DNA of 29,673 nt, from positions 1-29,673 of the IMG/VR virus record IMGVR_UViG_3300027699_000003, one strand, 5' to 3'. Both the position numbers and the translations under genes were made by a program. Below the pieces are notes generated by a model. The model did no database searches. It saw nothing but the letters and a program-made list of their open reading frames with translations, and had not been told where the DNA came from. Numbering within the stretch: position 1 is the stretch's first letter; each line of letters begins with the position of its first letter. Source of the stretch: a virus. Shown here one piece after another: positions 1 through 20,273 of this stretch.

Positions 1-3
1 CTA

Positions 4-1572: not shown

Positions 1573-1588
1573 AGGTTAAATATACATT

Positions 1589-2032
1589 ATGAGCGTTTCA
1601 AATAGAGAATTATACAAACAAATAGTAGTAGAGACTGGTAAGAAAGCACCTTCTCCTGTTAAGAGTAGAGCGTATCGAGGGTTGAGTACTGTTGACCCTG
1701 CTAACAATAGTCATATACTATATGATATTCAATTAATTAAACAAGATATTATAAATCATTTCCATATACGCCAAGGAGAGAAGTTAGAAAATCCAGAGTT
1801 TGGAACTATTATTTGGGACGCCATATATGAGCCTTTAACAGAGGGATTAAAAGAAACAATTGCAACTAATGTTACAGATATTGTTAATTCAGATCCACGG
1901 GTAGTAGCAGAGAGTATTCTTATTGATTCATATGAAAGTGGAATTATAATTGATTGTACATTAACGTATCTACCGTACAATATTTCGGAGCAAATGAGAT
2001 TAAAATTTGATGAGGGTGCGATACCATCTTAG
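1589..2032 (+). CDS. gp25: Baseplate wedge protein, gp25-like
   Basis: The protein belongs to the gp25/GPW family, which sits at the inner baseplate and starts sheath polymerisation. It has 147 residues; T4 gp25 has 132. The core signature is visible: RQGE at 61-64, NPEFGTIIWD at 68-77, EPL at 81-83 and DPRV at 102-105, followed by the alternating strands of the family's C-terminal half. The first 40 residues (Lys/Arg/Ser-rich) are longer than in T4. It starts 16 bases after the gp5 stop, with AGAGG at 1571-1575 as the probable ribosome binding site, and lies between gp5 and gp6, which supports the call. No enzymatic activity is expected: the old lysozyme-like name of this family reflects sequence grouping, not proven activity. 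Confidence 0.92.
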   Translation: MSVSNRELYKQIVVETGKKAPSPVKSRAYRGLSTVDPANNSHILYDIQLIKQDIINHFHIRQGEKLENPEFGTIIWDAIYEPLTEGLKETIATNVTDIVNSDPRVVAESILIDSYESGIIIDCTLTYLPYNISEQMRLKFDEGAIPS

Positions 2033-2064
2033 GTGGATAATTAAGTATGCATTTAATGAAATCA

Positions 2065-2072
2065 AATAAATA
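2065..2072 (+). promoter_or_regulatory. Possible T4-type late promoter before gp6
   Basis: AATAAATA lies here in the 59-base gap between gp25 and gp6. It resembles the T4 late promoter core TATAAATA. Nineteen bases from 2066 (ATAAATATAATTAATAGGG) recur almost unchanged at 24831-24849, in another gap before a gene. The ribosome binding site AGGGA at 2081-2085 follows, 6 bases before the ATG at 2092. The role is inferred from the box, its repetition and the gap. Confidence 0.5.
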
Positions 2073-2091
2073 TAATTAATAGGGAAAGATA

Positions 2092-5000: not shown

Positions 5001-5553
5001 TAACTTGTATAATAATTATGGTTCAGAAATTAACAAAATTAAGTCAATTAGTGACGAAGTCATTTACCATCCTGTAAAATATAAAGTTTTATTTGGAGCA
5101 ACTGCTGACCTTGATTTACAAGCTACTTTTAAAATAGTTAAGAATCCTGATCAAGTTGTTAATACTAATGCACTTAAGGCATCTGTTATTTCATCAATTA
5201 ATCAATTTTTTGCTTTAGATAATTGGGATTTTGGAGATACATTTTACTTCTCAGAGTTGAGTACTTATATTATGGCTACCGTTGCACCAGATTTAGTAAC
5301 AATTGTAATTGTTCCTAATCAAGAGTTGCAAGGGTTTGGTAGTTTATTTGAAGTTAAGTCTGAATCAGATGAAATTTTTATTAGTGGTGCAACAGTTGAC
5401 AATATTGAAGTTATAGATTCTGTTACAGCAAGTAGACTTAAAGCATCTGGTAAAGTTTTAACAGTTGCATCTAGCACAAATGCAGGTCTGCAAAGTGCTG
5501 GGACATATACATCGGGTACTATTACATCAAGCTCTGGGGGGACTAAAATCTAA
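2092..5553 (+). CDS. gp6: Baseplate wedge protein, gp6-like, enlarged
   Basis: This is likely the wedge protein that forms the ring joining the six baseplate wedges. The N-terminal 120 residues carry the family signature: YDFDSLRRTMIAYIRENYPE, IDSSEYLALVDLIAFLGQN and RENFLELAERRDSVLRLARL. This region is mostly helical and is typical of gp6 proteins of marine T4-like phages. The rest is beta-rich with many Asp/Gly/Thr turns. At 1153 residues it is much longer than T4 gp6 (660); the extra length lies after the conserved N-terminal region, in the middle and C-terminal parts. The C-terminal end is Gly/Ser/Thr-rich (GTYTSGTITSSSGGTK). Its stop overlaps the next start by one base (TAATG at 5551-5555), so translation is probably coupled to the giant protein. 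Identity is supported by both motifs and gene order; the added domains are not identified. Confidence 0.87.
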   Translation: MSVTNRQNRLLLSEDWKRVYQSFRNADFKSYDFDSLRRTMIAYIRENYPEDFNDYIDSSEYLALVDLIAFLGQNIAYRIDLNSRENFLELAERRDSVLRLARLLSYNPKRNQTANGLIKFDAVSTSEEVVDSNGTNLANQTIVWNDPANPDWKEQFEKVLNAALPINSIVGKPVKKDIVEGIITHQYRYKSSNTDVPVYSFAKNIDGRNIQFQIVSTDVTDGVISEEAPLPGNSLAFLYRDDGRGPGSSNTGYFCHFRQGTIDQGGFTVDAPSTNQSIAVDATNVNNTDVWLYKLNSIGAESELWTKVDAVEGNNIVYNSVRKKIRNVYGVLTKAQDKINLIFSDGTFGNLPKGDFRVYYRTSINQAYNIVPEDMTAIGVSIPYTSAVGNQETLNLTLALKYTVDNSSTSETNVSIRENAPATYYTQNRMVTGEDYQVSPLGISQEIIKVKSVNRASSGISRYFDLLDSTGKYSSTNLFGNDGVLYKETLTKYKNFTFVTKIDIEGTIVNTIEPILAEKQLLNYYLTHFPKTIVSDLGALWVQTTTGTNLTTGHFEDSDGTKYQVGTYTGSALRFIEPGTLIKFTAPAGYHFMKDGTLMTGAADHVDALEYKWVKVISVVGDGTADNADGSGPIILNDVIPATAVLNEVVPKFSKSIESAVQTQIIDQIYATKTFGLRYDINLRQWRVISENNLSILGDFSTGKTGDTTNQQLDASWLLLFETDGEKYTITYRSLRYIFESAAEIRFYFDSSDKVFDNKTGQIIKDKISVLSINLKPDLLTPFNGNHDWEISDAYRDADGYVDSKKIEISFYDDDEDGVVDDPETFIKVVNETTNPLTKYIFQKKYITTDGTEDYSFVSTEEESILTKQNESSIGALSQYTAGQVFYLATEDVFKKYTDGALALTTDYKSYVGRSGLKFQYIHAADDDNRIDPSSSNIIDTYLLTKQYDNSFREYLDGTLTSKPLPPSSDNLYNNYGSEINKIKSISDEVIYHPVKYKVLFGATADLDLQATFKIVKNPDQVVNTNALKASVISSINQFFALDNWDFGDTFYFSELSTYIMATVAPDLVTIVIVPNQELQGFGSLFEVKSESDEIFISGATVDNIEVIDSVTASRLKASGKVLTVASSTNAGLQSAGTYTSGTITSSSGGTKI

Positions 5554-8500
5554 TGCCATTTACTGATGACCAGCATGAGTATCCACTTCCAGGGTCAGGT
5601 AAAAAACCCCCAAAAAGAGAAAGTGCTGAATTACTTCCAAGATATTTTAGAACTCAACATAATAAGAAGTTTCTAAATGCAACTTTAGATCAACTAAACC
5701 AACCAGGTGTAGCTGAAAAATTAAGTGGATATTTCGGACGTCGTACGGCTAAAGCATATGAAGCCGGCGATACTTATATTGCTGAAAATAATAGTGATAG
5801 AGAAAATTATCAATTAGAACCAGCCGCAGTAATTAAAGATGATTTAAATAATGTAACTTTTTATAAAGATTATTTAGATTATATTAATCAGACAAGAGCA
5901 TTTGGCGGTACAGTTGATAACCATGATAAATTAAATAGCCAAGAATATTATGCTTGGAATCCTAATATTGATTGGGATAAATTTACTAACTTTAGAGAAT
6001 ATTACTGGTTACCAGGAGGCCCAATTGGTATTGGTATTGTTGGTCAAGCCGATAATATTATAAGCACTTATAAAGTAACTAAAAAAGATAACTTAGATAA
6101 CAATGGTTATGTTTTTACTCCAGACGGATTAACACAAAATCCAACATTAAAATTATATAGAGGGCAAACCTACATCTTTGAAATTGATGCATTAGGAATG
6201 CCACTAACTTTTAGAACTGCACGTTCATTAGATCCTAGTTTATTATATTCTAAAGGATTAGATGATAGTACTCAGACTGTTGATGTAGGAACAATTACTT
6301 GGACTATTGATAATTCAGCACCTGATACATTATATTATGTAAACGGAAATGATATTAATGCAAGTGGATTAATTCAAATTGCAGATGCAATTGAAAATTC
6401 TTCAATTGATGTAGAAAACGAAATCGTTGGTAAAAAGACTTATACAATGACAAATGGTTATTCATTGTCTAATGGTATGAAAGTTTACTTCCAAGGGAAT
6501 GTAACACCAACAAAGTATGCTACAGGTGAATGGTATGTTGAAGGTGTAGGAAATGAAATTAAATTAGTTCACGAAAAAGATTTAGAAATTCCTGCTACGT
6601 ATTCAACAAATAAACCTGTACCATTTGATACTGAAGGATTTGATAGACTGCCTTATAGTAATGCTAATAGTTTTGCAGGCGTTAAAGATTATCTTGTAAT
6701 TAATAGAGCATCTAGAAGTAGAAGTCCATGGACAAGGTATAACAGATGGTTTCATAGAGATGTTATTGAAACAGTTGCAACTATTAACGGCACACCAACA
6801 GAAATAGATCAAGATTATAGAGCAAAACGTCCTATTATAGAATTTGAAGCAGGATTAAAGTTATATAATTTTGGTACTAGTGCTAAAGATGATATTGATT
6901 TACTTGATACATTTACTAAAGATGTTTTTTCAGATATAGAAGGAGCAACAGGATATAATATTGATGGTTTAGATATTGTTGATAATATGAGAATATTATT
7001 TACTGCTGATCCAGATAGTAGAGTAAAAGGAAAAATTTTTAAAGTAAAGTTTATTACACATAACCTTGTAAGACAAATTAGTCTTATTGAAGAAACAGAT
7101 ACAAATCCAATCGAAAATGAAACAGTATTAGTTAGAAATGGTGAAACTTATAAAGGTAAAATGTGGTTTTATAATGGCACCGATTGGAAAGCAGGTCAAG
7201 ATAAAACCATTATAAATCAGACACCGTTATTTGAATTATATGATAGTGTAGGATATAGTTTTGCAAATAACACTTATTATGCGGCATCAACATTTAAAGG
7301 AAATAAAGTTTTTAGTTATAAAGTTGGTGCAGGAACTGTCAATGATGCAGAGTTAGGATTTTCTTTAAGTTATAGAGCACTAGAAAACACTGGTGATATT
7401 TTATTTGATTTTAATTTGTTAAGTGACAATTTTGCATACCAAAAAGACAATGCAGTTTTAACAAAAAATACAGATATAGGATTGTTACGAGTTTATACTG
7501 CTATTAATACATTTACATATACTTCAGGATGGATTAAAGCGAAAGCTAATAGTCGTCAACACGTTATAAGACAGTATGTTGTAACTACAAAATTTAATGA
7601 TTTTGCTATTGATGTTTATGACCGTAGTGGTGACCTAAATGATCTATGGGACAGAGTTTATGTTAATAATGTAAGACAATATAACGGAGTAGATTATGTA
7701 CTTAATAGAATTAATGGTACAGCCTTTGTTACTTTTGTAAAAAAATTAAAAGAAGATGATGTATTATTAATTAAAACTAATAGTGCTACAAAGAAAAACG
7801 TTAATGGCTATTATGAAATGCCATTAAATTTAGAAAGAAATCCATTAAACAACAATGTTCTTACTTTTACTTTGGGTGAAGTAACAGATCACGTACAAAG
7901 TATGACTGAATATCGTGATGATACTACTGGGACATTTCCTGGTAATACTAATTTAAGAGATTTAGGAGATCTTGCTCCATATGGTAGACGATTTGTTCAA
8001 CATAGTGGGCCAATAAATCTTGCATTGTTCAGTATAACAGATCAAGAATCAAATATTATTCATGCAATTAGACACGCTAGTAAAGAATACGGAAAGTTTA
8101 GACGTTTATTTCTTCAGGAAGCAAACCAATTAGGATTTGATGGAGAAACAAAAGAACACTTTGACCGTGTAATGAAGAAAGTTGTTAGAAGTAAAACAAA
8201 TGATATGCCATATTACTTTAGTGATATGATTGGTATAGGAACGTCTACTAAAACAACGCATACAGTTGAAGATATAGATACAGTATTTTATGCCCTAGCA
8301 CAAGATTTTGGTTTATCAGACTTATCATCAAGAGCAGTTTATGTTTATAAAAACGGAGTTCAACTTGTTCATGGTGTAGATTATTATTTTCCTGAAGAAG
8401 ATCAACCAGGGTTTGTTGCTATTACTGGAACTAAAGTTATAGGCGATGTACTTGATGTTTATGAATATGAAACAAGTGATGGAAGTTATATTCCACCAAC

Positions 8501-11500
8501 ACCGAGTAAGTTAGGATTATATCCTGCATATAAACCATATAAATTTCTTGATGATACGTATCAAGTACCTACAGAAGTTATTCAAGGACATGATGGTAAT
8601 ATTTTTGTTTGCTATGGCGATTTTAGAGATGACTTATTATTAGAATTAGAAAAAAGAATTTATAATAATATAAAATGTGCATATGATAAAACAATTATTG
8701 ACATTCATGAGTTCGTTGGTGGTGAATCAAGAGATACAGGATTTACTAAATGGCAACGAGACAGAGCATTAATTACTGATTTTACAGCATGGTTATCTAA
8801 TGTTGGTGATTTAGATTATAGTGATTATGGTTTTTATCAAAGAACAAATAGTTTTACATTTAACTATGGTAGTATGACATCTCCAAAAGGTGCTAAATTA
8901 CCTGGTTACTGGCGAGGCATTTATAAAGAAGCATACGATACTGATCGCCCACATACACATCCTTGGGAAACATTAGGATATACACTTGAGCCGACATGGT
9001 GGAAAACTGTATACGGTCCAGCGCCTTATACAAGTGAAAATAAAATTTTATGGCAAGACATTGAAGATGGAGTAATTAGAGAACCTGGTAAATCATTAAC
9101 ATATCTTCCTGCTTATGCTAGAAAAGATATTACAAAACATATTCCAGTTGATGATGTTGGAAAATTATTAAGTCCACTAGATAGTAACTATGCTAAAAAT
9201 TATGTTCTTGCATTAACAGAAGGTCCTTTTGAGTTTGGAGATGAAGCTCCAACAGAAACTGCTTGGCGTAGAAGTAGTGAGTATCCGTTTGCATTTATTG
9301 TAAGTTGGATTCTTAATCAACCAAGTAAAATTGTAGGACTAGGGTTTGATAGATCACGAATTATTAGAAACCCAGCTAAAGAAATTGTATATAGTGAGAC
9401 TAGTAAAAGACTTAGATTAAAAGATTTAGTTTTTCCGAATACACATATGGATACAGTTAGGGTTAGTACATCCGGACTTGTTAATTACATTTTTGATTAT
9501 ATTGGTTCACGAACATTAGTATCTTATGATGCTTATAAGAAAAATTTAACAACATTAACTAATCAACTAGGATTTAAAGTTGCAGGGTTTACAAATAAAG
9601 CTAAATTTAAATTATTGTTAGATAGTAGAACTCCATATAATGAAGGGAATGTTTTTGTTCCTGATGAAAACTATAAAGTATTTTTAAATTCAAGTTCTGT
9701 TGTTGATTTAGTAAGTTATAGTGGAGTTATTATTGAAAAACAACCTGCAGGATTTATTGTAAAAGGATATGATAAAGCTAATCCTTACTTTAAGTATTTT
9801 GCGGTACGTGAAAGAGCAAATGATCCAGTTGAAAGAGTTGGTGGAGTTACTGATAGTTTTGTTATATGGAAATCAAACCAAACGTATGTTGAAGGACAAA
9901 CTGTAGAATTTACTAACGAATATTATAGAGTTAAAGAAGGGCATATTAGTACTGGTGATTTTAATTCTAGCTTTTTTGCAAAATTAGTTGAATTACCAAT
10001 ATCAGGCGGAGTGTCAGCATATTTTAGACGCGAGTTTGATACTGAACCACCGTTTATTAATAGTACATTAGAATTATCATATGGACATTTATTTAGAACT
10101 GTTCAGGAAGTGGTTGATTTCTTATTAGGTTATGGAGCATGGCTAGAGTGGAAAGGCTTTGATTTTAATTGGTTTAATAAAGATATTAATTCAGTTGAAA
10201 ACTGGACTTTAAGTGCTAAAGAATTTTTATTCTGGACTACACAAAACTGGAATGCAGATAGTGTTATAACATTAAGTCCTGCCGCTAACAAATTTAAGTT
10301 TAGAAAAGACTTTTATGTATCAGATAATATCTTTGATAGTTTTTATGATTATACACTCTTGAAAGCAGATGGTAAAAAATTATTACCTGAATTTGTTAAT
10401 GTTTATAGAAGTGTTAATAATGAATTCCAAATAACAACTAAAAATAGTGCTGACGGAGTATATGCAGTTAAATTACCGCTAATACAAAAGGAGCACGTTG
10501 TTCTATTAGATAATCATACAGTTTTTAATGATATTGTTTATGATTTAGAACCAGGATATAGACAAGAAAGAATTAAAGTTTTAGGTTACAGAACAGATGA
10601 CTGGACTGGTAATTTAAATATTCCTGGATTTATATATGATAATGCTATCTGTACTGATTGGATACAATATCAAGATTATGCTATTGGTGATACTGTACGT
10701 TACAAAGAATTTTATTATGTTGCTAAAATAAAAATACCTGGGACTGAAAGTTTCGAAGCTGAAAACTGGGTACGCTTAGACGAAAAACCAACGTCCGAAC
10801 TAATTCCTAATTTAGATTATAAAGCAAAACAATTTAAAGATTTTTATGATTTAGATACTGATAACTTTGATACAGAACAACAAAGGATGTCACAGCATCT
10901 TATTGGATATCAAAAAAGAAATTACCTTTCAAACATTATCAATGATGATGTTAGTCAGTATAAATTTTATCAAGGATTTATTCAAGATAAAGGTACACAA
11001 AATAGTTTAACAAAATTATTCGATGCTTTAAGTAATGCAGATAAAGATAGTATTGAGTTTTATGAAGAATGGGGTATTAAATTAGGCCAATATGGATCAG
11101 CAGAAGCGTTTGACGAAATTGAATTTAAATTAGATGAAGCAAAATTTAAGTTAAGTCCGCAACCATTAGAGTTAGTTGATACTATTTTAGGAACAGAAAC
11201 CGATTTAATTTATAGACAAAGACCATTTGAAGTTTATCTTAAACCTAATAATTATGATCATAAGCCGTTTCCAACGAAATATAAAGCAACGGATTATATA
11301 CCAACAGCAGGCTTTGTTAATGAAAGTGATGTTAAGTTAACAGTTGCTACCTATGATGATATTTTAACTCAAGATATTAAAACTTTAAATGTTGGTGATT
11401 ACGTATGGGCCGGGACACGAGGAACAACTTGGGATGTTGTCAAATATATTAGTACAACTGATAGAGTTACAGCTATAACTTCAGACACTGATGCTGGTAC

Positions 11501-14500
11501 AACTACAATAAAACTTAATACACAAGCTAGATATGAAGCAAATGAAATTATAGGTATTCTTGATGTAACTGATGCTGAGAAATTTTTTAAAGTTAAAAGT
11601 GTATCATTAGATACTGTTATTTGTTATGCAAATGGTACTACAGAAGATGTAGAGGTAGCAACGGGATTTGTTACAACATTTACTTCTTCAAGAGTTGCTA
11701 GTTTAACTGAAGCAAATACTAAAGCTATTAATAGTTCATTAAAAGTAGGTGAATTATTTTGGATTGACGATGATGATTCAAGTCGTTGGATTGTCTTAGA
11801 AAATAAACCTGCTTTTACTTCACATTCGTTAGTTACTAATCCTGAGTCAGGAATAGATCATGAATTTGGTAAAGTTATTGCGTCAGATGATAGAAATACT
11901 ATTTTAATTGCATCAGCTCCAGGACTAGAAAAAGTTTATGTATTTTTACGAACTACTGAAGGTACGCCTTATGCACTAGCACAAGAGATTGATGCACCAA
12001 CAGGACTTTATACAGGTAATGGAAAATTTGGTAGTAGTGTTGCATTAACTGATGACGGTGAGCATTTAGTTATTGGTGTGCCTGAAGCTAGTAATATAAA
12101 GACAAAATTTAAAGGTAACTTTGATACTGCAACGTCTTATGTTGCGGGAGAACTTGTTAAGCATCTTGAAACATTCTGGGAAGCTCAATGGCCTGTTGCA
12201 CCAGCAACTGGGGCATTAACATTTCCTAGTTTTGCTTCAACTTCTAAAATACAAGAATCTCATTATGATGCAGGAGCCAATTCGTATCCTACTATAGTGT
12301 TTGCTATAAGAGGTGATTATAATTTAGATGTTACAACAGATCATATATTAGTTAGAGCACCAACCAGTCAATATAATGGATCTGCACCTAATGATAAATT
12401 AGTTCTTAATTGGAATGAATTTTCACAAAATTATCCAACAGGAATTTTACCATGGGGATCAACAGGTCCTGGTGTAGCGGCATTTGAAGGAAGCAAAATT
12501 ATTGCGGCTAAGATTGATGCTGTTTTATATGTTGACAACTTAATACGTGTTCCTAATGTTGGAGATTCACTTTCATCATCAGCGGCACTAGGAGAAGTAG
12601 CATACATTCGAATTGAAAATGTTAGTCAAGCAATAATTTATATGAAAGATGTTAGTGGACAGTTTTCTGCTACTGACGAAATTTTCTTAAATGCAGTAAG
12701 TTGCGGAACTTATACATTAATTCAACCAGAAGGCGGAGCAAGTACATTTGCTGGCTGGTGGAAGATAGATGGATTTACACCGTTTACTACAACACTTACT
12801 TCAGCACAAAATATTCAAACACCAAACTTTGTGCTCCAAGATTTTATATTACAATCTGAATCACGTTCACCTGTTGTATTTGGTAACACAATGGATGACG
12901 TTCGTGCATTAAGTTTAATTACTGATCCAACCAGAGGTGGTCGTTTAGGTCATTTAAGTTATTATGATAAAAATGGATTACCTAATTTAAGTGAACTTTG
13001 GTTTATAAGAGCTCCTAAAGTTTTTACAGATCCAGCTAATCCAACAGACTCATTAAATATTTGGGTTAATACTATTAGAGGTGGTGTTGAACCTATCTCA
13101 GTATTTGACCCAGCAACGCTAGGTTTAACATTTAGTTACTTGAACGATACAACACATACAATTCATGACTTATGGTCAGGCTTTATTGATGTAACATTTA
13201 CAAACTTTGATGGTTTTGGGAATCCTTATATTCCACAAGAAGGTGATACTGTTATTGATGATACTACAGGCGCTGAAGCTGAAGTATCATATTTGCAAGA
13301 ACAATTATTAACGTGTAGATTATATTTAAAAAGTAGAGTAGGAACATTTAGGTTCGGAGTTAATAATGGTGAAACTAGTACCATTAGTATTAAAGATGCT
13401 ATTAGCCTTGGTGTTAATAGACTATCGGGGAGATTAGATCATGCGGATATGGATAGTGCGACTACAGGTGAAATGGTTGTTGTTAAAAACACGGATTCAA
13501 CTCAGTTTCCGGTTACTTCGTCGACTTTTCAAAACGAGTTAGAAGTACATTTTTATTCCAGCAGTACAGTTAGCGGAATTGCTCAAACACCGAGTTATCC
13601 TACACCACTGAATAAAGATTGGTTACAATATTATAATATTCCAGCTCATACTGAGGGTGTAGCAGGTTCGTATACTAATGAAGGAATGTATCTAGCTTAT
13701 GCAAAAACAGATTCAAGAGAGTATTCATTAAATTATGGTTACATAATACCAGACAGAGGTAATAACAAGTATGTAGGAAAGCAATTAGAATTTGCAACAG
13801 ATAATAAGTTACATTATCTTTATGTTAGTACAGGAGACCTTAATACAGTAGGTAATGCTGGTAGAATTTATTTTGTTAAACATGGTACTGACGCTGATGC
13901 AAATGAATATAGTTATGCATTAGGTAAGGACAAATATTATAAAGGAACATTTAGTAACAGTCAAACATACTTTGAAAATGATATAGTTTTATATACAAGT
14001 AAGTTTTATCAAAGTAAAACTAATTTAGCGGCTGGAGCCTTTCAGACATCTTTGTGGACAGAATTATCCACGCATATAGATTATGTAGGACATATTCCTA
14101 ATGATTCTGGTTTAACAGTTGATGGCGAAAATCTTGCAGATCAAAGTACAATAAAGAATTTTGCTCAACCGTTTGCTGAAAGTAAAGACGGAAGTGTTTT
14201 AGTTGTTGTAGCAGAATATACTGATACTAATCCTAAAATTTTAATTTATAGATTAAACAACGGTCATTATGAATTTAGTCAAGTTATTGTAACACCTAAT
14301 GCAGATATAGGATTTGGTCAAGCAATTGCAGTTTCAGATGATGGAACATTAGTTGCAGTCGGAGCCCCATTACAAGATGAGGTTAACGATAACAATGGTG
14401 CTGTTTATGTTTACAGACTAGTTTCTGGTAGCTTTATATGGTCACAAACACTTTATAGTCCGGAAGATGATGTAGCAGAAAGATTTGGGGCATCATTAGA

Positions 14501-17500
14501 CTTTGATAAAAATAATTTAATTGTATCATCTAGAGGTGGCGACCTTATTTCAACTACAACATTTGATGCTAATACTGTAGTTGCTACTACACTTGATAAT
14601 AATCTTACTCAGTTTAAAACAGCAAACGAAGATAGTGGACAAGTTCTTGTATTCCAAAGATTTAATAATACATTAATTTATAGCGAAAGATTTGTTTATA
14701 ATAATCCTGCAACTCGTAGGTTTGGTGAAAATTTATTATTCAGAGATAATCATGTTTATGTTTCAATGCCTGAATTAACAATATCAACAACTGATAACGA
14801 GATGGGCACTATACTTGACTTTAGACGTGATAGAGTTACACTATCATGGACTACTTTACGTACACCTATTGATCAAGTTGATATAGGAAAATACAGAGGT
14901 GTGTTTATTTACGACACAAGAGATAATTCGTTAACTAAACAAATAGATTATATTGATCCTATCCAAGGAAAGATTGCTGGTACGGCTGAAGAAGAATTAT
15001 CATATAAAACACCATATGACCCAGCAGTTTATACAACTGGAGAAGCTCCAGCTGTGGTTGATTCTGGAGGATACTGGGGTGAAAAATATGTTGGAAAACT
15101 TTGGTGGGATTTAAGTACTATAAAATTTCATAATCCTTACCAAGGCGACATAATTTATCAAACTGCTAACTGGGGTCGTTTATTTACAGGCGCAAGTGCT
15201 GATATTTACGAGTGGGTTGAAACTACACTTAAACCTTCAGAGTGGTTAGAACAAGCAGATACAGAAGAAGGATTAACTAAAGGAATTAGTGGAACACCTA
15301 AATATGATGATAATACTTTAGTGACAGGAAGAGTATTTGATAAACAAGGACAGTCTTTTTCTAACAAGTATTACTACTGGATTAAAAATAGAAAAATTAT
15401 TCCAGGAATAATAGATAGAAAAACTAGTGCATATGATGTTGCACAATTAATTGCAGATCCACAAGCACAAGGATATCAATTTATAGCACCACTTTCAAAC
15501 AATAGATTTGCTTTGTATAATTGTGCAAATTTACTTTCAGGAGATAATTCTGCAATTAACTTCCGTTATTGGAATATTGAAACACCAACAAATATCCATA
15601 ATGAATATCAAATTTTAAGTGATGGCTTGGGTACAAGTAGACCTAAACAGGAATTAGAACGTAAATGGTTTGATAGTTTAATTGGTTGGGATACAAAAAT
15701 GAGATCTGTTCCAGATCATGCATTAAGTGTAAAACAACGATATGGTATTTTAAATCGTCCAAGACAAAGTATGTTTGTTAATAGACTTGAAGGTGTTAAA
15801 CAATTTGTTGAACGAGTTAATTTAGTTTTTAAGCAAAACATAATTATTGATGAATATGATATTAGTAAATTTAATTTAGTTGATCCATTACCTACATTAA
15901 ATTCTGGAACGTATGATGCAGTTGTTGATACGTATGCTGAAATAGTTTATGTTGGTACGGCTAAAGTTGAACAAGCTATCTTAACGCCAACTTGGGTTAA
16001 TGGTAAGTTAACAGATGTAAAAATTACTAATCCTGGGCGTGGATATAAAGTACCACCTACATATGACTTTGCTAATATTGGTAATGGTAGTGGTGCTGTT
16101 ATAACTTTAACAATTGATACTTTAGGAAAAATTACTTCAGCAGTTATTAAATATGAAGGTAAAGATTATCCAAGTACTACTTCTATTGAAGTTAGAAAGT
16201 TTAGCACACTTATTAAAACAGACGAAACAGTCCAAAATAAATGGGCTATTTACGGATATAATGCAACTTCAAAAACGTGGGAAAGAACTGCAAGTCAAAG
16301 TTATAATGTACCTAAGTTTTGGTCTTATGCTAATTGGTATGCTATGGGGTATACTCAGTTTACAGATGTTGATTATCTAATAGACGAAAGTTATCAATTA
16401 ACAGCTTTAGATGATAGTATTGGTGATATAATTAAAATTAAAACAGTTGGTTCAGGTGGTTGGTTACTATTAGAGAAAACATCTGATGCGCCTGCTGTAG
16501 ATTATACTACTAATTATAAAACAATTGGTAGAGCAAACGGAACCCTTGAATTATCTTCAAAGTTATATAATTATCCAGCTTCACATATTGGTTATGATGC
16601 TTTAAGTTATGATACTAGTGATTATGATAATCAACCAGTACATGAACTTAGATTAATATTACAAGCACTACGTGATGATATTTTAATAGATGATCTTGCA
16701 GTAGAATATAATAAGTTATTCTTTTCAAGTGTACGTTATGCATTTTCAGAACAAAAATATGTTGACTGGGCATTTAAAACAAGCTTCATGAAAGCAAAAC
16801 ATAACATAGGAGATCTTAAACAAAAAATTACTTTCCAAAACGATAATCTTTCTAGTTATGAAGATTTTGTAGCAGAAGCAAAACCGTATAAAACAAAAAT
16901 TAGAGAATACTTAACTTCGTATACAAAAACAGATCCTACAAATTCGTCAGTAACTGATTTCGATTTACCACCAGCTTATAATGTACAAGATGGTAAAATT
17001 GTTCCGTCTGCTTTAAAAATAAAAGACGATGCAGTATATGGAGTAGATCCAGGGTTAGTAACTTATCCAAATAAACATTGGAAAGAAAATTTAGGATATG
17101 ACGTTGTAGAAATACAAATTAAAGATGGTGGAACAGGATATCTTGAGGTTCCAGTAATTACATTTAGTGGCGGTGGCGGAACAGGAGCCAAAGCTAGAGC
17201 ATATATTGGTACCGGTGGAAAAATTACTGCAATTATGATGACAAATGTTGGGTCAGGATACTTATCTGCACCAACAGTTATTATTAATGGTACACAATCA
17301 GATGATGGTAAGGAAGCAAGTGTTTCAGCTAAACTAGGCAATGGAAAAGTTCGTAATAGTCATATTATATCAAAGTATGATAGAGTTACAGGAACATTTT
17401 TAATTACAACATTAACAGAAACACAAAACTTTACAGGTAATGCAAGTGAAATTAATTTTGATTTAACATGGCCAATGGACTTAAGGCCTTCACAAATTGA

Positions 17501-20273
17501 AGTTACAGTTGCAAACATTGAATCATTAAACAGTGAGTACACATACTCTAATGTTGCAGATGAAACTAAGACTTATACAAGATATAAAGGTCGTATAACA
17601 TTTACTAATCCGCCAGCTAATAATGCCGCTATTGTGGTCAAGTATAGTAAATCAATTAATATGCTTCAAGCACAAGACCGTATTAGTTTATTTTATAAAC
17701 CAACAGACGGAATGCTAGGAAATGATATAGCACAATTAATGGATGGTATTGATTACGGTGGTGTAGAAGTTAGAAGTTTTGATTTTGGTGGAGGCGCAGG
17801 TTGGAGTTCAGAGCCTTGGTATACATCAACTTGGGATACGTATGATAATACGTATGAAGACGAAGTCTTTACATTAGATGGCAGTACAAATGTTTTTGCT
17901 CTTGCAAAACCATTAGAAGATGGCGTAATTTATAATGTTTATAAAAATGGTGTTAGAGTAGACGATCCAGAATATGATGGTAGTACTGTACCGGGTAATC
18001 CTAGTGCAGTTATGCAATCTATTACAGGTGATGGTACAACACAAACTGTTCAACTTAATGAAGAATTAATTCCAACAGTTGATGGCGATGTAATTATTAT
18101 TAGAAAGTCTTCAAGCGATGGAAGTTTTATTCCAGATCCAGATGCATATGATACATTATTACAAGGTGGCGATATGGCATATACATCAGCAAGGGGTCTT
18201 GCATCGGAAGAAATTGTTGTTGATGGTGATGGCTTTGTTACAGAATTAACATCAAAAGGTCCAGAAGAATTAATTCCAGGACAAGTTCTTGATACAGTTG
18301 ATTTTAAAGTTTATGATAGATCTACAGATGGATCAAGTATTATTAGTAGTCATAATTATTTTGGGGATGGATCTAAAACTGCATTTCCTATTACTAACAT
18401 ACCAGCAAGTCAAACAGATTTATTTGTAAAAGTAAATGGAATAATTTTAGATGCTACTCAATATACTGTAAATTATCAAACTAAACAAGTTGTGATTACT
18501 AACGCACCAGGACTTGACGAGCAAGTACACATTTCAACAATGTCAAACAATGGTGAAAAAATTATAGACTTTGATTCATTTGTTGGCGACGGTTCAACAT
18601 CACAGTTTGTTACGTCGGTTATTTATAAAACAGGATTGTCATATACATTAACAGTAGATGGCGAAACAGTACAAACTGATCTAGATGAAACCGATGCTAC
18701 ATATGAAGTACCAGGTAGGGTTGTTTTTAAATTAGGAACTGTACCTAACTCTGATGCAGTAATTCAATATGTAATTTATGATAGTGTTAGTAAAGCATTT
18801 AGCCAACTATCAACAGAAGCATTTACTGGCAATGGAGTTGACGCATCATTCACATTAAGTCAAGTACCATTTACTAGTGAACCAACTAGTCATAACATTA
18901 TAGTTAAATTAAATAATAAGATTTTAAGTGCAGGATATAATCAACAATTTACAGTTGTTGCAGGACGTGAATATCAATTAAGACAATGGCAAATTTCAAC
19001 AGCAACTATTAGTTCTGAAAATGTGTATGTTTTCTTAAATGGTGTTCAGTTAGAAATAGGAATAGAATGGCGTTGGGACACATATAATGGAACAGCAGTA
19101 TTATTTGATACTACAGGAACCATAGGTGATAACTTAGAAGTGTTTGTACTTGATAGTGGAGATTATCAATTAGGATACTTTGATAGTGGAACATCTTTAT
19201 TTGTTAAAACACCTAATAAAGTTTATTTAGATGTTGTTCCAGCTAATGGTGATATACTAACAATCTATCAATTTAGTAAGCATGATATTAGAAAAATTGA
19301 GAGAGAAGTATTTGATGTTGTAGCAAGAAATGACGTTACAGTTGGTACTGATGGTTATACAGAGTATCATCAATTAACTAAAGGAATAATTAGATTACGT
19401 GAAGAAGCCTTTGATGCTGAATATGTGTGGGTTACATTAAATCAAGACTTATTAACTCCAAGCATTGATTATTATGTTACAGATGATAAAAAACATATCA
19501 AAATTGTAGTTGATATCGATCCTAATGATAAGATAGAAGTAATTCATTTTACTAATCCTATTATTGTTCCAAAATTTGGATTTAGAATTTTCAAAGATAT
19601 GTTGAATAGAACACATTATAAACGACTTGGAGATGATAATAAATATACATTAGCAGAAGATTTACATTGGTATGATAGCAGAATTTATGTAACAAATTAT
19701 GATCGTTTACCTCTTCCTAACAAGGATAAAGGTATTCCAGGAATAATTTTTATAAACAGCGAACGTATTGAGTATTATTTGAAGGAAGGTGGAGCTATTA
19801 GGCAGTTACGTAGAGGCACGTTAGGTACAGGTATTGCAGAGTTACATAAAGCTGGATCAGAGTTAATTGATCAGAGCGGAACGCAAACAATACCATATAC
19901 TGATGAGACAAAAACGCAGGTATTTGAAGCAGATGGGTCTACAGCGGCTATTACAGTTGATTTTATTCCAAAAACTGTTAATGAATTTGAAGTATTTGTA
20001 GCAGGTAAGCGATTACGTAAAAATGCAATTAGTTCATTCGATGTAACGCTTAATTTAGATAGTCCTGAAGGAGATGTTACGTTACCACCTGAATTTAGTG
20101 TAGATGGTACAACATCAACGGTGACATTATTAAATACACCAGCTATTAATAGTAAAATTATAGTGGTGAGAAAGCTCGGAAGAACTTGGACTGATCTAGG
20201 TACTCCGTTGCATAGACAGGAAAACAACATAGGGCGTTTCTTAAGAAGCAAAGAGGTTGCGTTACCTAAATAA
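5553..20273 (+). CDS. Giant 4906-residue baseplate-region structural protein
   Basis: This single open frame fills half the window without a stop and follows gp6, where T4 carries gp7. I recognise the N-terminal part as a family of marine T4-like phages: LLPRYFRTQHNKKFLNATLDQ near 28-48, DWDKFTNFREYYWLP (about 139-153), RSPWTRYNRWFHRDV (391-405), and GYWRGIYKEAYD with EPTWWKTVYGPAPYTS in about 1120-1160. Other visible parts are a cupredoxin-like domain (196-276), four carbohydrate-binding-like segments, FG-GAP-like blades (2104-2180 and 2870-3074), two GxGY repeats, an RGTLGT motif near 4760, and a C-terminal array of GDGS beta repeats. A helical patch at 1786-1849 (KFYQGFIQDKGTQNSLTKLF) resembles a stretch I associate with wedge scaffolds. 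I infer a baseplate wedge or peripheral fibre-like protein in the outer baseplate, perhaps the gp7 equivalent and perhaps related to the VrlC-like proteins of cyanophages. The exact role is unproven. The frame is not a sequencing fusion by any sign I see: no shift in codon use or composition. Confidence 0.8.
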   Translation: MPFTDDQHEYPLPGSGKKPPKRESAELLPRYFRTQHNKKFLNATLDQLNQPGVAEKLSGYFGRRTAKAYEAGDTYIAENNSDRENYQLEPAAVIKDDLNNVTFYKDYLDYINQTRAFGGTVDNHDKLNSQEYYAWNPNIDWDKFTNFREYYWLPGGPIGIGIVGQADNIISTYKVTKKDNLDNNGYVFTPDGLTQNPTLKLYRGQTYIFEIDALGMPLTFRTARSLDPSLLYSKGLDDSTQTVDVGTITWTIDNSAPDTLYYVNGNDINASGLIQIADAIENSSIDVENEIVGKKTYTMTNGYSLSNGMKVYFQGNVTPTKYATGEWYVEGVGNEIKLVHEKDLEIPATYSTNKPVPFDTEGFDRLPYSNANSFAGVKDYLVINRASRSRSPWTRYNRWFHRDVIETVATINGTPTEIDQDYRAKRPIIEFEAGLKLYNFGTSAKDDIDLLDTFTKDVFSDIEGATGYNIDGLDIVDNMRILFTADPDSRVKGKIFKVKFITHNLVRQISLIEETDTNPIENETVLVRNGETYKGKMWFYNGTDWKAGQDKTIINQTPLFELYDSVGYSFANNTYYAASTFKGNKVFSYKVGAGTVNDAELGFSLSYRALENTGDILFDFNLLSDNFAYQKDNAVLTKNTDIGLLRVYTAINTFTYTSGWIKAKANSRQHVIRQYVVTTKFNDFAIDVYDRSGDLNDLWDRVYVNNVRQYNGVDYVLNRINGTAFVTFVKKLKEDDVLLIKTNSATKKNVNGYYEMPLNLERNPLNNNVLTFTLGEVTDHVQSMTEYRDDTTGTFPGNTNLRDLGDLAPYGRRFVQHSGPINLALFSITDQESNIIHAIRHASKEYGKFRRLFLQEANQLGFDGETKEHFDRVMKKVVRSKTNDMPYYFSDMIGIGTSTKTTHTVEDIDTVFYALAQDFGLSDLSSRAVYVYKNGVQLVHGVDYYFPEEDQPGFVAITGTKVIGDVLDVYEYETSDGSYIPPTPSKLGLYPAYKPYKFLDDTYQVPTEVIQGHDGNIFVCYGDFRDDLLLELEKRIYNNIKCAYDKTIIDIHEFVGGESRDTGFTKWQRDRALITDFTAWLSNVGDLDYSDYGFYQRTNSFTFNYGSMTSPKGAKLPGYWRGIYKEAYDTDRPHTHPWETLGYTLEPTWWKTVYGPAPYTSENKILWQDIEDGVIREPGKSLTYLPAYARKDITKHIPVDDVGKLLSPLDSNYAKNYVLALTEGPFEFGDEAPTETAWRRSSEYPFAFIVSWILNQPSKIVGLGFDRSRIIRNPAKEIVYSETSKRLRLKDLVFPNTHMDTVRVSTSGLVNYIFDYIGSRTLVSYDAYKKNLTTLTNQLGFKVAGFTNKAKFKLLLDSRTPYNEGNVFVPDENYKVFLNSSSVVDLVSYSGVIIEKQPAGFIVKGYDKANPYFKYFAVRERANDPVERVGGVTDSFVIWKSNQTYVEGQTVEFTNEYYRVKEGHISTGDFNSSFFAKLVELPISGGVSAYFRREFDTEPPFINSTLELSYGHLFRTVQEVVDFLLGYGAWLEWKGFDFNWFNKDINSVENWTLSAKEFLFWTTQNWNADSVITLSPAANKFKFRKDFYVSDNIFDSFYDYTLLKADGKKLLPEFVNVYRSVNNEFQITTKNSADGVYAVKLPLIQKEHVVLLDNHTVFNDIVYDLEPGYRQERIKVLGYRTDDWTGNLNIPGFIYDNAICTDWIQYQDYAIGDTVRYKEFYYVAKIKIPGTESFEAENWVRLDEKPTSELIPNLDYKAKQFKDFYDLDTDNFDTEQQRMSQHLIGYQKRNYLSNIINDDVSQYKFYQGFIQDKGTQNSLTKLFDALSNADKDSIEFYEEWGIKLGQYGSAEAFDEIEFKLDEAKFKLSPQPLELVDTILGTETDLIYRQRPFEVYLKPNNYDHKPFPTKYKATDYIPTAGFVNESDVKLTVATYDDILTQDIKTLNVGDYVWAGTRGTTWDVVKYISTTDRVTAITSDTDAGTTTIKLNTQARYEANEIIGILDVTDAEKFFKVKSVSLDTVICYANGTTEDVEVATGFVTTFTSSRVASLTEANTKAINSSLKVGELFWIDDDDSSRWIVLENKPAFTSHSLVTNPESGIDHEFGKVIASDDRNTILIASAPGLEKVYVFLRTTEGTPYALAQEIDAPTGLYTGNGKFGSSVALTDDGEHLVIGVPEASNIKTKFKGNFDTATSYVAGELVKHLETFWEAQWPVAPATGALTFPSFASTSKIQESHYDAGANSYPTIVFAIRGDYNLDVTTDHILVRAPTSQYNGSAPNDKLVLNWNEFSQNYPTGILPWGSTGPGVAAFEGSKIIAAKIDAVLYVDNLIRVPNVGDSLSSSAALGEVAYIRIENVSQAIIYMKDVSGQFSATDEIFLNAVSCGTYTLIQPEGGASTFAGWWKIDGFTPFTTTLTSAQNIQTPNFVLQDFILQSESRSPVVFGNTMDDVRALSLITDPTRGGRLGHLSYYDKNGLPNLSELWFIRAPKVFTDPANPTDSLNIWVNTIRGGVEPISVFDPATLGLTFSYLNDTTHTIHDLWSGFIDVTFTNFDGFGNPYIPQEGDTVIDDTTGAEAEVSYLQEQLLTCRLYLKSRVGTFRFGVNNGETSTISIKDAISLGVNRLSGRLDHADMDSATTGEMVVVKNTDSTQFPVTSSTFQNELEVHFYSSSTVSGIAQTPSYPTPLNKDWLQYYNIPAHTEGVAGSYTNEGMYLAYAKTDSREYSLNYGYIIPDRGNNKYVGKQLEFATDNKLHYLYVSTGDLNTVGNAGRIYFVKHGTDADANEYSYALGKDKYYKGTFSNSQTYFENDIVLYTSKFYQSKTNLAAGAFQTSLWTELSTHIDYVGHIPNDSGLTVDGENLADQSTIKNFAQPFAESKDGSVLVVVAEYTDTNPKILIYRLNNGHYEFSQVIVTPNADIGFGQAIAVSDDGTLVAVGAPLQDEVNDNNGAVYVYRLVSGSFIWSQTLYSPEDDVAERFGASLDFDKNNLIVSSRGGDLISTTTFDANTVVATTLDNNLTQFKTANEDSGQVLVFQRFNNTLIYSERFVYNNPATRRFGENLLFRDNHVYVSMPELTISTTDNEMGTILDFRRDRVTLSWTTLRTPIDQVDIGKYRGVFIYDTRDNSLTKQIDYIDPIQGKIAGTAEEELSYKTPYDPAVYTTGEAPAVVDSGGYWGEKYVGKLWWDLSTIKFHNPYQGDIIYQTANWGRLFTGASADIYEWVETTLKPSEWLEQADTEEGLTKGISGTPKYDDNTLVTGRVFDKQGQSFSNKYYYWIKNRKIIPGIIDRKTSAYDVAQLIADPQAQGYQFIAPLSNNRFALYNCANLLSGDNSAINFRYWNIETPTNIHNEYQILSDGLGTSRPKQELERKWFDSLIGWDTKMRSVPDHALSVKQRYGILNRPRQSMFVNRLEGVKQFVERVNLVFKQNIIIDEYDISKFNLVDPLPTLNSGTYDAVVDTYAEIVYVGTAKVEQAILTPTWVNGKLTDVKITNPGRGYKVPPTYDFANIGNGSGAVITLTIDTLGKITSAVIKYEGKDYPSTTSIEVRKFSTLIKTDETVQNKWAIYGYNATSKTWERTASQSYNVPKFWSYANWYAMGYTQFTDVDYLIDESYQLTALDDSIGDIIKIKTVGSGGWLLLEKTSDAPAVDYTTNYKTIGRANGTLELSSKLYNYPASHIGYDALSYDTSDYDNQPVHELRLILQALRDDILIDDLAVEYNKLFFSSVRYAFSEQKYVDWAFKTSFMKAKHNIGDLKQKITFQNDNLSSYEDFVAEAKPYKTKIREYLTSYTKTDPTNSSVTDFDLPPAYNVQDGKIVPSALKIKDDAVYGVDPGLVTYPNKHWKENLGYDVVEIQIKDGGTGYLEVPVITFSGGGGTGAKARAYIGTGGKITAIMMTNVGSGYLSAPTVIINGTQSDDGKEASVSAKLGNGKVRNSHIISKYDRVTGTFLITTLTETQNFTGNASEINFDLTWPMDLRPSQIEVTVANIESLNSEYTYSNVADETKTYTRYKGRITFTNPPANNAAIVVKYSKSINMLQAQDRISLFYKPTDGMLGNDIAQLMDGIDYGGVEVRSFDFGGGAGWSSEPWYTSTWDTYDNTYEDEVFTLDGSTNVFALAKPLEDGVIYNVYKNGVRVDDPEYDGSTVPGNPSAVMQSITGDGTTQTVQLNEELIPTVDGDVIIIRKSSSDGSFIPDPDAYDTLLQGGDMAYTSARGLASEEIVVDGDGFVTELTSKGPEELIPGQVLDTVDFKVYDRSTDGSSIISSHNYFGDGSKTAFPITNIPASQTDLFVKVNGIILDATQYTVNYQTKQVVITNAPGLDEQVHISTMSNNGEKIIDFDSFVGDGSTSQFVTSVIYKTGLSYTLTVDGETVQTDLDETDATYEVPGRVVFKLGTVPNSDAVIQYVIYDSVSKAFSQLSTEAFTGNGVDASFTLSQVPFTSEPTSHNIIVKLNNKILSAGYNQQFTVVAGREYQLRQWQISTATISSENVYVFLNGVQLEIGIEWRWDTYNGTAVLFDTTGTIGDNLEVFVLDSGDYQLGYFDSGTSLFVKTPNKVYLDVVPANGDILTIYQFSKHDIRKIEREVFDVVARNDVTVGTDGYTEYHQLTKGIIRLREEAFDAEYVWVTLNQDLLTPSIDYYVTDDKKHIKIVVDIDPNDKIEVIHFTNPIIVPKFGFRIFKDMLNRTHYKRLGDDNKYTLAEDLHWYDSRIYVTNYDRLPLPNKDKGIPGIIFINSERIEYYLKEGGAIRQLRRGTLGTGIAELHKAGSELIDQSGTQTIPYTDETKTQVFEADGSTAAITVDFIPKTVNEFEVFVAGKRLRKNAISSFDVTLNLDSPEGDVTLPPEFSVDGTTSTVTLLNTPAINSKIIVVRKLGRTWTDLGTPLHRQENNIGRFLRSKEVALPK
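6138..6380 (+). other. Cupredoxin-like domain in the giant protein (residues 196-276)
   Basis: Residues NPTLKLYRGQTYIFEIDA, then TITWTIDNSAPDTLYYVNGN and a closing GLIQI, follow the fold signature of cupredoxin-like domains found in many phage and marine proteins. In copper-binding members a His precedes the Phe/Pro near the first strand and a Cys/His/Met group lies after TLYY. Here these places read GMPLTF and VNGNDINASG, so copper binding is not expected. It is probably a structural beta-sandwich. Confidence 0.55.
9861..9998 (+). other. Carbohydrate-binding-like segment 1 (residues 1437-1482)
   Basis: The segment has the pattern Y-x2-G-x-x-V-x(5)-YY-x(n)-F-x(4)-F-x(2)-L: TYVEGQTVEF, EYYRVKEG, then FNSSFFAKL. 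This resembles the short CBM5/12 (chitin-binding type 3) module Yx2GdxVxYxgxxYxa...W. Three more copies occur in the same protein. The function is inferred; the last aromatic is Phe rather than Trp. Confidence 0.45.
10656..10784 (+). other. Carbohydrate-binding-like segment 2 (residues 1702-1744)
   Basis: DYAIGDTVRYKEFYYVAK followed by FEAENWVRL gives the fullest match in this protein to the CBM5/12-type pattern, with the conserved GD, V, Y, YY and final Trp all present. It lies directly after a beta-rich stretch and before the helical patch at 1786-1849. Whether it binds sugar is untested. Confidence 0.5.
10908..11099 (+). other. Helical wedge-scaffold-like patch in the giant protein (residues 1786-1849)
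   Basis: The patch reads YQKRNYLSNI, KFYQGFIQDKGTQNSLTKLF and DSIEFYEEWGIKLGQYG. It is the longest clearly helical stretch in an otherwise beta-rich protein. The layout (short helices around a GFI-x-x-KGT turn, then a Leu-Phe helix) reminds me of the C-terminal scaffold part of T4 gp7, where STKGIEASYKFLF occurs. This is a similarity of pattern, not an alignment. Confidence 0.35.
11862..12092 (+). other. FG-GAP-like propeller blades, first part (residues 2104-2180)
   Basis: Two blade-like repeats are visible: FGKVIASDDRNTILIASAPG and FGSSVALTDDGEHLVIGVPE. Each has the FG...SxDgxxlxIGaP pattern of FG-GAP/integrin-like propellers. The next blades do not appear until residue 2870, so about 690 residues interrupt the propeller. 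Confidence 0.6.
12108..12197 (+). other. Carbohydrate-binding-like segment 3 (residues 2186-2215)
   Basis: FDTATSYVAGELVKHLETFWEAQWPV follows the first two propeller blades. It has the Y-x-x-G-x-x-V core and the aromatic pair (FW). It is the weakest copy, because the second half after QW is not clearly conserved. Confidence 0.35.
13938..14069 (+). other. Carbohydrate-binding-like segment 4 (residues 2796-2839)
   Basis: NSQTYFENDIVLYTSKFYQS followed by FQTSLWTEL repeats the pattern of segments 1 and 2, with Tyr, Val, Phe-Tyr and the final Trp at matching spacing. It ends the long insertion and lies just before the second set of propeller blades. Confidence 0.45.
14160..14774 (+). other. FG-GAP-like propeller blades, second part (residues 2870-3074)
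   Basis: Blade-like repeats appear as FAESKDGSVLVVVAEY, FGQAIAVSDDGTLVAVGAP, FGASLDFDKNNLIVSS and FGENLLFRDNHVYVSMP, with strands such as GAVYVYRL and GQVLVFQR between them. Together with residues 2104-2180 this makes at least six blades, close to the seven of a full propeller. The parts may fold together around the insertion. Confidence 0.6.
15993..16193 (+). repeat. GxGY-type Gly-rich repeat, copy 1 (residues 3481-3547)
   Basis: The unit has two halves, each a strand followed by a G-x-GY-type turn: VKITNPGRGYKVPP, then GNGSGAVITLTIDTLGKITS and IKYEGKDYPS. The same layout recurs at residues 3848-3913. Such units occur in other phage tail proteins. Confidence 0.6.
17094..17291 (+). repeat. 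GxGY-type Gly-rich repeat, copy 2 (residues 3848-3913)
   Basis: This is the clearer copy: IQIKDGGTGYLEVPVITFSG, then GGGGTGAKARAY and MMTNVGSGYLSAPTVIING. The layout GxGY-x(3)-P-x(n)-GxGAxAxA-x(n)-GSGY-x(2)-APTV is a known repeat in phage structural proteins. Confidence 0.65.
17868..20129 (+). repeat. C-terminal fibre-like beta repeats (residues 4106 to about 4859)
   Basis: Units open with a D/N-G turn: LDGSTNVFAL (17868), TGDGTTQTVQL (18021), FGDGSKTAFPI (18357), FVGDGSTSQFVT (18579), FTGNGVDASFTL (18822), EADGSTAAITV (19923) and SVDGTTSTVTL (20094). Each is followed by a strand-turn-strand with a VxVNG or KNGVRV-type segment, as in phage fibre and receptor-binding repeats. Spacing is irregular (about 50-85 residues, and a large gap from 18857 to 19923), so copies have diverged. 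Confidence 0.6.

Follow-up and report, generated by a model that had tools for sequence, protein, structure and literature searches.

A 4,906-residue structural protein encoded behind gp6 in a T4-related virus is an oversized member of a jumbo-phage protein family

Results

The locus and its giant frame

The window, i.e. the whole stretch of 29,673 bases analysed here, is an entire IMG/VR virus record; as it is much shorter than the contigs of its relatives, the record is a fragment. It carries, all on the plus strand, gp5-, gp25- and gp6-like genes, a giant frame, a gene for 204 aa and three fibre-like genes (Table 1). The gp6 stop codon and the ATG of the giant overlap by one base, in a TAATG junction.

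Table 1. Position of the genes of the window and of the blocks and domains of the giant protein (aa, amino acids; CV, coefficient of variation of length)
Feature	Coordinates (residues of the giant)	Strand	Basis
gp5-like hub protein, 522 aa	4..1572	+	phrog_13211, E 8.2e-51
gp25-like baseplate wedge protein, 147 aa	1589..2032	+	phrog_43, phrog_261; PF04965 below cut-off
gp6-like baseplate wedge protein, 1,153 aa	2092..5553	+	phrog_10646, 982.7 bits; phrog_219 (T4 gp6 family), 81 bits
Giant virion structural protein, 4,906 aa	5553..20273	+	single open frame; phrog_10938; dN/dS
Module of ~100 aa common with a P-SSM2 tail-fibre-like protein	6096..6389 (182-279)	+	hmmsearch E 1.1e-22 to PSSM2_028
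Scaffold part 1	6450..11222 (300-1890)	+	near-constant length among IMG/VR relatives
Small beta domain, fibre-anchor type	7596..7775 (682-741)	+	iterated HMM seeded on 905-976, E 6e-18
Small beta domain, fibre-anchor type	8286..8471 (912-973)	+	same HMM, E 2.8e-19 (seed here)
Chitin-binding-type module	9858..9992 (~1436-1480)	+	Pfam CBM_5_12, 22.7 bits, below cut-off 26.2
Most conserved stretch, largely helical, proposed gp6 interface	10773..11102 (1741-1850)	+	conservation windows, pLDDT
Variable insert	11220..14867 (1890-3105)	+	197-1,642 residues among 116 sequences, CV 23%
FG-GAP-like repeats, first group	11775..12098 (2075-2182)	+	self-comparison with 2892-2999, probability 91-94%
FG-GAP repeats, second group	14154..14777 (2868-3075)	+	PF14312 and self repeats
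Scaffold part 2	14865..17132 (3105-3860)	+	CV 3.6% in 105 sequences
Conserved low-confidence stretch, proposed interface	16743..16922 (3731-3790)	+	pLDDT, conservation percentiles
Variable C-terminal tail of small beta domains	17130..20270 (3860-4906)	+	CV 16%, 73 sequences
Linked gene phrog_11259, 204 aa	20295..20909	+	co-occurrence with the giant
Three fibre-like genes	20914-22941, 22941-24824, 24862-26367	+	phrog_15511 and phrog_14394 in all three

The original prediction of a single frame of 4,906 residues proves to be correct, with an ATG start and exactly the bounds of Table 1. At the base composition of the window, the chance of 4,906 stop-free codons is about 10^-184, and the frame recurs in relatives. 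When it was compared with four of these (L018, L002, L004 and L006, 13 windows each of 400 codons, the last of 106), dN/dS ranged from 0.12 to 0.41 in 52 windows out of 52; the whole frame is therefore kept as protein, under purifying selection throughout. The mass of the product is estimated at about 540 kDa. A contig of 199,810 bp (L001/G001) encodes a protein 100% identical to the giant in the 1,016 residues that were searched. Of the 60-base probes taken from positions 1 to 18001 of the window, seven fall in the fetched stretch of this contig, which contains every one of them.

The gene that follows the giant, phrog_11259, is present in 10 out of 10 giant-bearing records (five IMG/VR contigs of 122-400 kb and five isolate genomes) and in neither of two records without giant, T4 and HTVC008M. 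Of 41 testable loci, 37 have it at most 2.5 kb downstream of the giant, and the four exceptions (L041, L042, L045 and L047) have a frame of 326-377 codons directly after the giant. In RaK2, phrog_11259 is about 7 kb away from the giant homologue, on the opposite strand. As for the fibre-like genes, the first displays a tail collar domain (PF07484 Collar, 55 bits), and the three combine a common N-terminal module with differing C-termini, as if one anchor had been copied onto several fibres.

Two adjacent ORFs at 27682-29365 of the window look by eye like glycosyltransferases (DxD-type motifs), and Pfam gave no match for them at E <= 0.01. On the 199.8-kb contig, the segment at 69-88 kb (L178) contains genes of the UDP-glucose/GDP-mannose dehydrogenase type downstream of the tail genes, at 348-1133—which continues the last frame of the window, 29350-29673—and at 8159-9334. 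At least four Radical SAM genes (at 3151, 10815, 11795 and 14207), two of them with SPASM domains, accompany these; this would be an unusual small-molecule or sugar-modification cluster for a phage.

Relatives in IMG/VR and in jumbo phages

The giant as query fetched 142 IMG/VR loci, from which three whose longest frame was gp6 were dropped. The remaining 139 loci correspond to 132 distinct sequences, and the family occurs in at least 597 IMG/VR stretches. The frame is complete from stop to stop in 59 of the 139 loci, with 4,074-5,345 codons; 58 of these frames have 4,459-5,345 codons and exceed the proteins of the isolates that we compared (3,138-4,449 aa), while the shortest one (L005, 4,074 codons) stops 178 bases short of the locus end. 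A gp6 match was found directly upstream of the giant in all 119 testable loci. In 118 of them the gp6 stop lies within 150 bases of the first ATG of the giant, with a median gap of 0 (TAATG-like overlap), and gp25 is present in 117. Locus L011 (1332-4871) has an intact giant preceded at once by a gp6 divided into two frames, of 561 and 617 codons; a sequencing error may be the cause of this division.

Among PHROGs, the giant matches phrog_10938, "virion structural protein", with 1022.7 bits over five stretches of a profile of 3,324 positions; this match was run for the protein of the window only, the isolates being linked to the giant by tblastn. With residues 1-2000 as the tblastn query, 63 of 50,697 phage records match, and in at least 54 of them the match spans no less than half of the query; these records represent phage genomes of 284-490 kb, in full or in fragments. 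Six short matches, among the matches listed, belong to two Stenotrophomonas phages and four Prochlorococcus records. By annotated gene length, the homologues are gp355 of PA5oct (3,857 aa), gp465 of RaK2 (3,326 aa), CBB_236 of CBB (3,340 aa), gene 582 of 121Q (3,323 aa), AUZ94962 of Atu_ph07 (4,449 aa), AUS03005 of Vibrio 2.275 (3,771 aa), WAX21643 of RAS14 (3,138 aa) and gp140 of SCTP-2 (3,807 aa). By tblastn, homology extends to both scaffold parts, less so for RAS14, which matches only over residues 1029-1300 and weakly over 1751-1850. The giant of the window is the longest, with 4,906 aa against 3,138-4,449, mainly through its insert: 1,216 residues, against 197-494 in four out of five isolates and 1,488 in Atu_ph07.

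The gene directly upstream of the giant homologue is gp6 in seven of the eight isolates, with 721-1221 bits for a profile made of the gp6 of the window and its relatives, which four of the seven matching isolates helped to build. In SCTP-2 there is no match to this profile within the 34-kb stretch around the homologue, and the gene directly upstream encodes an unnamed protein of 3,096 aa (L068 4612-13902); gp6 of SCTP-2 may have been moved, lost or much changed.

Members of the family were already found in virions. CBB_236 was identified by mass spectrometry, with 21 unique peptides and a coverage of 7.72% (PMC5259590 Table 4), and the record of PA5oct gp355 bears an ESI-MS/MS note. In the protein table of phAPEC6 (PMC7247149 Table 1), gp245 (381.88 kDa, 17 unique peptides, 7.6% coverage) comes after gp244, a baseplate wedge protein of 131 kDa. 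121Q, which we compared, is called there identical to phAPEC6 in the major capsid protein; phAPEC6 itself is likened by description. These identifications concern relatives, at a coverage below 8%, and bear on the presence of the protein rather than on an intact full-length chain. Also likened by its published description, gp58 of AP-J-162 ("Structural protein", 4,455 aa) is similar to the giant in size and sits after a baseplate wedge protein of 1,198 aa, as the giant sits after gp6 (PMC11242549 Table 2); it is reported as 49.6% identical to the Atu_ph07 protein (PMC11242549).

In the published passages and tables on jumbo-phage structural proteins that we consulted, these proteins are called "structural" or "hypothetical" at most, with no function given (PMC6102473, PMC3622015, PMC5259590, PMC7247149, PMC11242549). 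The RaK2 passages on structural proteins make no mention of the giant homologue; those of the phiKp24 cryo-EM study describe capsid, tail and fibres, and no giant baseplate protein (PMC9700779); the words "baseplate" and "propeller" were not found in a word search of a jumbo-phage review (PMC7824862). NCBIfam has no family for the giant at E <= 0.01. The giant, of marine type according to the original prediction, is an oversized representative of a family that had been catalogued, and detected in jumbo-phage virions, beforehand; this kinship had escaped the original prediction. The proposal of a structural protein in the gp7 position, on the other hand, is borne out by gp25 and gp6 upstream, by relatives annotated as virion proteins and by the mass spectrometry of CBB_236.

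Block architecture

Three kinds of block make up the giant: a scaffold whose length hardly changes among IMG/VR relatives, an insert, and a C-terminal tail of small beta domains, the last two both variable. In scaffold part 1 the CV of length is 1.6% for residues 300-900 (130 sequences) and 3.6% for 900-1890 (126 sequences); all block CVs were obtained mostly from IMG/VR relatives, excluding the sequences that do not reach past the block on both sides. The scaffold of the isolates (n=5) varies more: 565-872 residues for 300-900, 840-1,044 for 900-1890 and 563-776 for 3105-3860. Scaffold part 2 is nevertheless aligned in all five, except for much of 3400-3600.

The insert contains two groups of FG-GAP repeats which, by self-comparison, are about 690 residues apart. 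In the second group FG-GAP_2 (PF14312) is found at residues 2920-2954 with 36.1 bits, above the curated cut-off of 23, and the self repeats pair 2868-2994 with 2919-3073. The same domain was detected at E <= 0.01 in 31 of 35 inserts. By eye, both groups could be blades of one split propeller. CBM_5_12 is matched at E <= 0.01 in 25 of the 35 inserts (E 1.7e-13 for the best relative), and the model of the chitin-binding-type module of the giant, around residues 1436-1480, can be superposed on chitin-binding domains with a Z of 6.8 (45 residues, 1.2 A).

The tail, which ranges from 190 to 1,656 residues among relatives, repeats itself (4265-4865 with 3956-4808, by profile self-comparison). The small beta domain recurs along the giant, at 682, 912, 4472 and 4615 (HMM E <= 3.4e-13). 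Near the N-terminus, the module at residues 182-279 is common with a fibre-like protein of P-SSM2 (L071 20116-21795); by eye it has a cupredoxin-like pattern, the window being devoid of the metal ligands. The earlier description of the protein as baseplate-like at its N-terminus and fibre-like at its C-terminus holds only in part: a baseplate assignment comes from the gene position and the relatives, not from a similarity to T4 sequences.

Structure models and conserved stretches

Structure models were obtained for residues 760-1900 (AF2) and 3100-4200, with a mean pLDDT of 82.1 and 78.8 respectively. With either model, Foldseek found no solved structure at E <= 0.001; the first one matched 29 predicted viral structures, among which the Atu_ph07 homologue (E 9.6e-60). 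T4 gp7 is absent among the matches listed for these fold searches, an absence that excludes nothing. In PDB, the sequence of the whole giant had no match at E <= 1, and the profiles A4, A5 and A6 had a sole match under E 0.001, to 67 positions of a tailspike.

At the level of single domains, the model of the beta domain 912-973 aligns with TSP4 of CBA120 (VIA-align, Z 8.6, 1.9 A, 64 residues) and with T7-type fibre N-termini. The beta domain of chain B of the T4 structure 5IV5 aligns with small beta domains of the giant (VIA-align, Z 5.9 for 912-973, and 6.2), and the best alignment of domain 3951-4035 is with the fibre-anchor domain of the DT57C neck protein (Z 8.9). Unrelated models reach Z values close to these; from such single-domain matches we therefore claim only the type of domain, fibre-anchor, for the small beta domains.

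The six top-ranking 60-residue windows of conservation all fall within residues 1741-1850, which is also the longest low-confidence stretch of the model 760-1900: residues 1760-1849 have a pLDDT of 26-50, with helices between 1774 and 1826. Similarly, residues 3740-3789 combine a pLDDT of 26-38 with conservation percentiles of 0.71-1.0, and only short helices are modelled there. Over each model the correlation between conservation and pLDDT is negative but weak (r -0.33 and -0.17); residues 971-1040 are also among the most conserved, yet their pLDDT is 91-96, and a low pLDDT could also come from a shallow alignment. We propose that 1741-1850 and 3731-3790 might be surfaces that fold on a partner. 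Since the wedge of T4 and of the T6SS is a trimer of two gp6 (TssF) and one gp7 (TssG), joined by a three-helix bundle according to the description in PMC6300606, gp6 would be the natural candidate for this partner.

Relation to the T4 baseplate proteins

Like the giant, T4 gp7 (1,032 aa) comes directly after gp6; the giant is nearly five times longer and has no detectable sequence or profile similarity to it. Profile comparison of the giant with T4 gp6, gp7, gp8, gp9, gp10, gp11, gp12 and gp53 gave a best probability of 3.6%, and at most 0.1% for gp7 by hhalign, when the homologous gp9 and gp10 profiles, used as positive control, reached 97.7%. The T4 profiles were small (18-24 relatives each) and all fetched through T4 gp7, so that a remote homology could be missed. 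As for the gp7 families, neither phrog_964 at E <= 1 in PHROGs nor Gp7_helical, Gp7_5th and Gp7_6th at E <= 5 in Pfam were found in the giant.

In the ten giant-bearing records, the models of gp7 (phrog_964), gp8 (PF09215) and gp11 detected nothing, T4 being positive each time; the contigs may be incomplete, and the absence of these genes there is thus weak evidence. The gp53 model matched eight of the ten records, over the cut-off in four and once across stop codons. It missed Vibrio 2.275, whose record annotates a gp53, which shows the limit of such profile searches. For this reason the non-detection of gp7, gp8 and gp11 is compatible with their replacement by the giant, without demonstrating it.

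The module T4_gp9_10_N has no match in the giant. It is present in three of the ten giant-bearing records, always in other frames; on the 199.8-kb contig, gp9/gp10-type N-termini are found in three separate frames, one over the Pfam cut-off and two below. In L045 and L047 the gene directly after the giant carries a gp9/gp10-type module; in L041 and L042 that place is taken by a frame of comparable size. On the 199.8-kb contig, which comes from the population of the window itself, the frame over the cut-off lies on the minus strand (L179 8814-16943) and encodes 2,709 aa with a T4 gp10-type N-terminus, a second very large protein of fibre type in this virus.

Three other relationships were considered and rejected. 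The matches of the giant to phrog_438 (gp8) concern profile positions 185-276 only, that is one mobile beta domain, also present in gp055 of HTVC008M; T4 gp8 itself matches this profile at 3-86, 139-185 and 441-478. The matches to phrog_460 (head closure Hc2) at 3849-3925 correspond to the same mobile domain and are not taken as a function. Finally, a paralogy between gp6 and the first 1,100 residues of the giant (99.3%) was an artefact of three gp6 rows, L060, L063 and L064, which had entered the alignment as their giant frame is cut short; once they were removed, as in alignments A4 and A5, the probability fell to 0.2%. As for other T4-like phages of marine origin, HTVC008M carries, after a 618-aa "baseplate wedge subunit", a gene of 1,016 aa that bears the label Hc2, and gp6 was not identified in the stretch of P-SSM2 that was examined.

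Discussion

We consider it rather probable that, in this T4-related and jumbo-phage-like virus, the giant is the outer protein of the baseplate wedge, standing in the place of gp7, binding gp6 and carrying fibres. It would be the third partner of the wedge, as gp7 is in T4. Stretches 1741-1850 and 3731-3790 would take up their fold on contact with gp6 or with another copy of the wedge; the periphery of the wedge would be made of the scaffold, with the insert and the tail pointing outward to hold the fibres encoded just downstream and to touch surface sugars. T4 gp7 is tabulated at six copies per virion (PMC3004832 Table 1), and on this model there might be one giant chain per wedge, hence six per virion. 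The earlier idea of a long peripheral arm fits with the tail of small beta domains.

Several observations argue for this wedge protein: the presence of gp6 upstream in every testable locus and in seven isolates out of eight, and of gp25 in 117 of 119 loci; the relatives in virions (CBB_236, PA5oct gp355); a length CV of 1.6-3.6% in the scaffold, compared with 23% in the insert and 16% in the tail; FG-GAP_2 and CBM_5_12 in 31 and 25 of 35 inserts; a most conserved stretch modelled with low confidence; and gp53 detectable in eight of ten giant-bearing records, gp7, gp8 and gp11 in none. At the opposite, T4 gp7 is matched neither by sequence nor by profile and is not listed by fold, SCTP-2 has no gp6 match in its 34-kb stretch, the conserved residues 971-1040 are modelled confidently, the scaffold lengths of the isolates vary more, and the link between conservation and pLDDT is only partial. 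Besides, proteins of adjacent genes, such as gp6 and the giant, need not touch.

The giant could instead be a fibre or whisker protein merely encoded beside baseplate genes, its main job being host contact through the propeller, the sugar-binding modules and the beta-domain tail. The CBM- and FG-GAP-type modules, the fibre-anchor domains and the fibre genes directly downstream would suit such a role, and sheath whiskers are described in some relatives (CBB, PMC5259590). However, the length of the scaffold varies far less than that of the modules presumed to make contact, the protein persists in PA5oct, RaK2 and Vibrio 2.275 without most of the insert, and its gene is tied to gp6 throughout the 119 testable loci; we regard this possibility as rather unlikely.

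A true fusion, in which one chain would have taken over T4 gp7, gp8, gp9 and gp10 as originally suggested, is allowed by the size of the giant and could account for gp7, gp8 and gp11 models that are positive in T4 and in none of the ten giant-bearing records. Against it, profile comparison with T4 gp7 to gp12 did not exceed 3.6%; gp9/gp10-type N-termini—separate homologues being what would speak against a fusion—lie in other genes, three of them on the same 199.8-kb contig (one over the cut-off); and the phrog_438 matches are limited to the mobile beta domain at 185-276, which is not among the T4 gp8 parts. The fusion is not supported, and we hold it for improbable. Even less credible is a polyprotein that would be cleaved, in the course of assembly, to give several proteins of the baseplate and the fibres: its size and its distinct blocks joined by variable stretches might evoke one, but the coverages tabulated for phAPEC6 gp245 (7.6%) and CBB_236 (7.72%) are compatible with a cleaved chain as with an intact one.

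A bolder reading is conceivable, although we advance it only tentatively: a reduced wedge, made of gp25, gp6, gp53 and one giant chain that would do the combined work of T4 gp7, gp8 and gp11, with an exchangeable sugar-sensing head (FG-GAP propeller and chitin-binding-like modules). A single polypeptide of up to ~5,300 residues would in that case both sense the host and take part in switching the wedge.

The new elements are the block architecture, the almost invariable association with gp6 and phrog_11259, an insert of variable length that bears sugar-binding-type modules, and the negative result on a gp7-gp10 fusion. An anonymous annotation that recurs across dozens of jumbo-phage records and no fewer than 597 IMG/VR stretches is now tied to a place behind gp6, to a block architecture and to phrog_11259, and these ties yield testable predictions on jumbo-phage baseplates built without recognisable gp7, gp8 and gp11.
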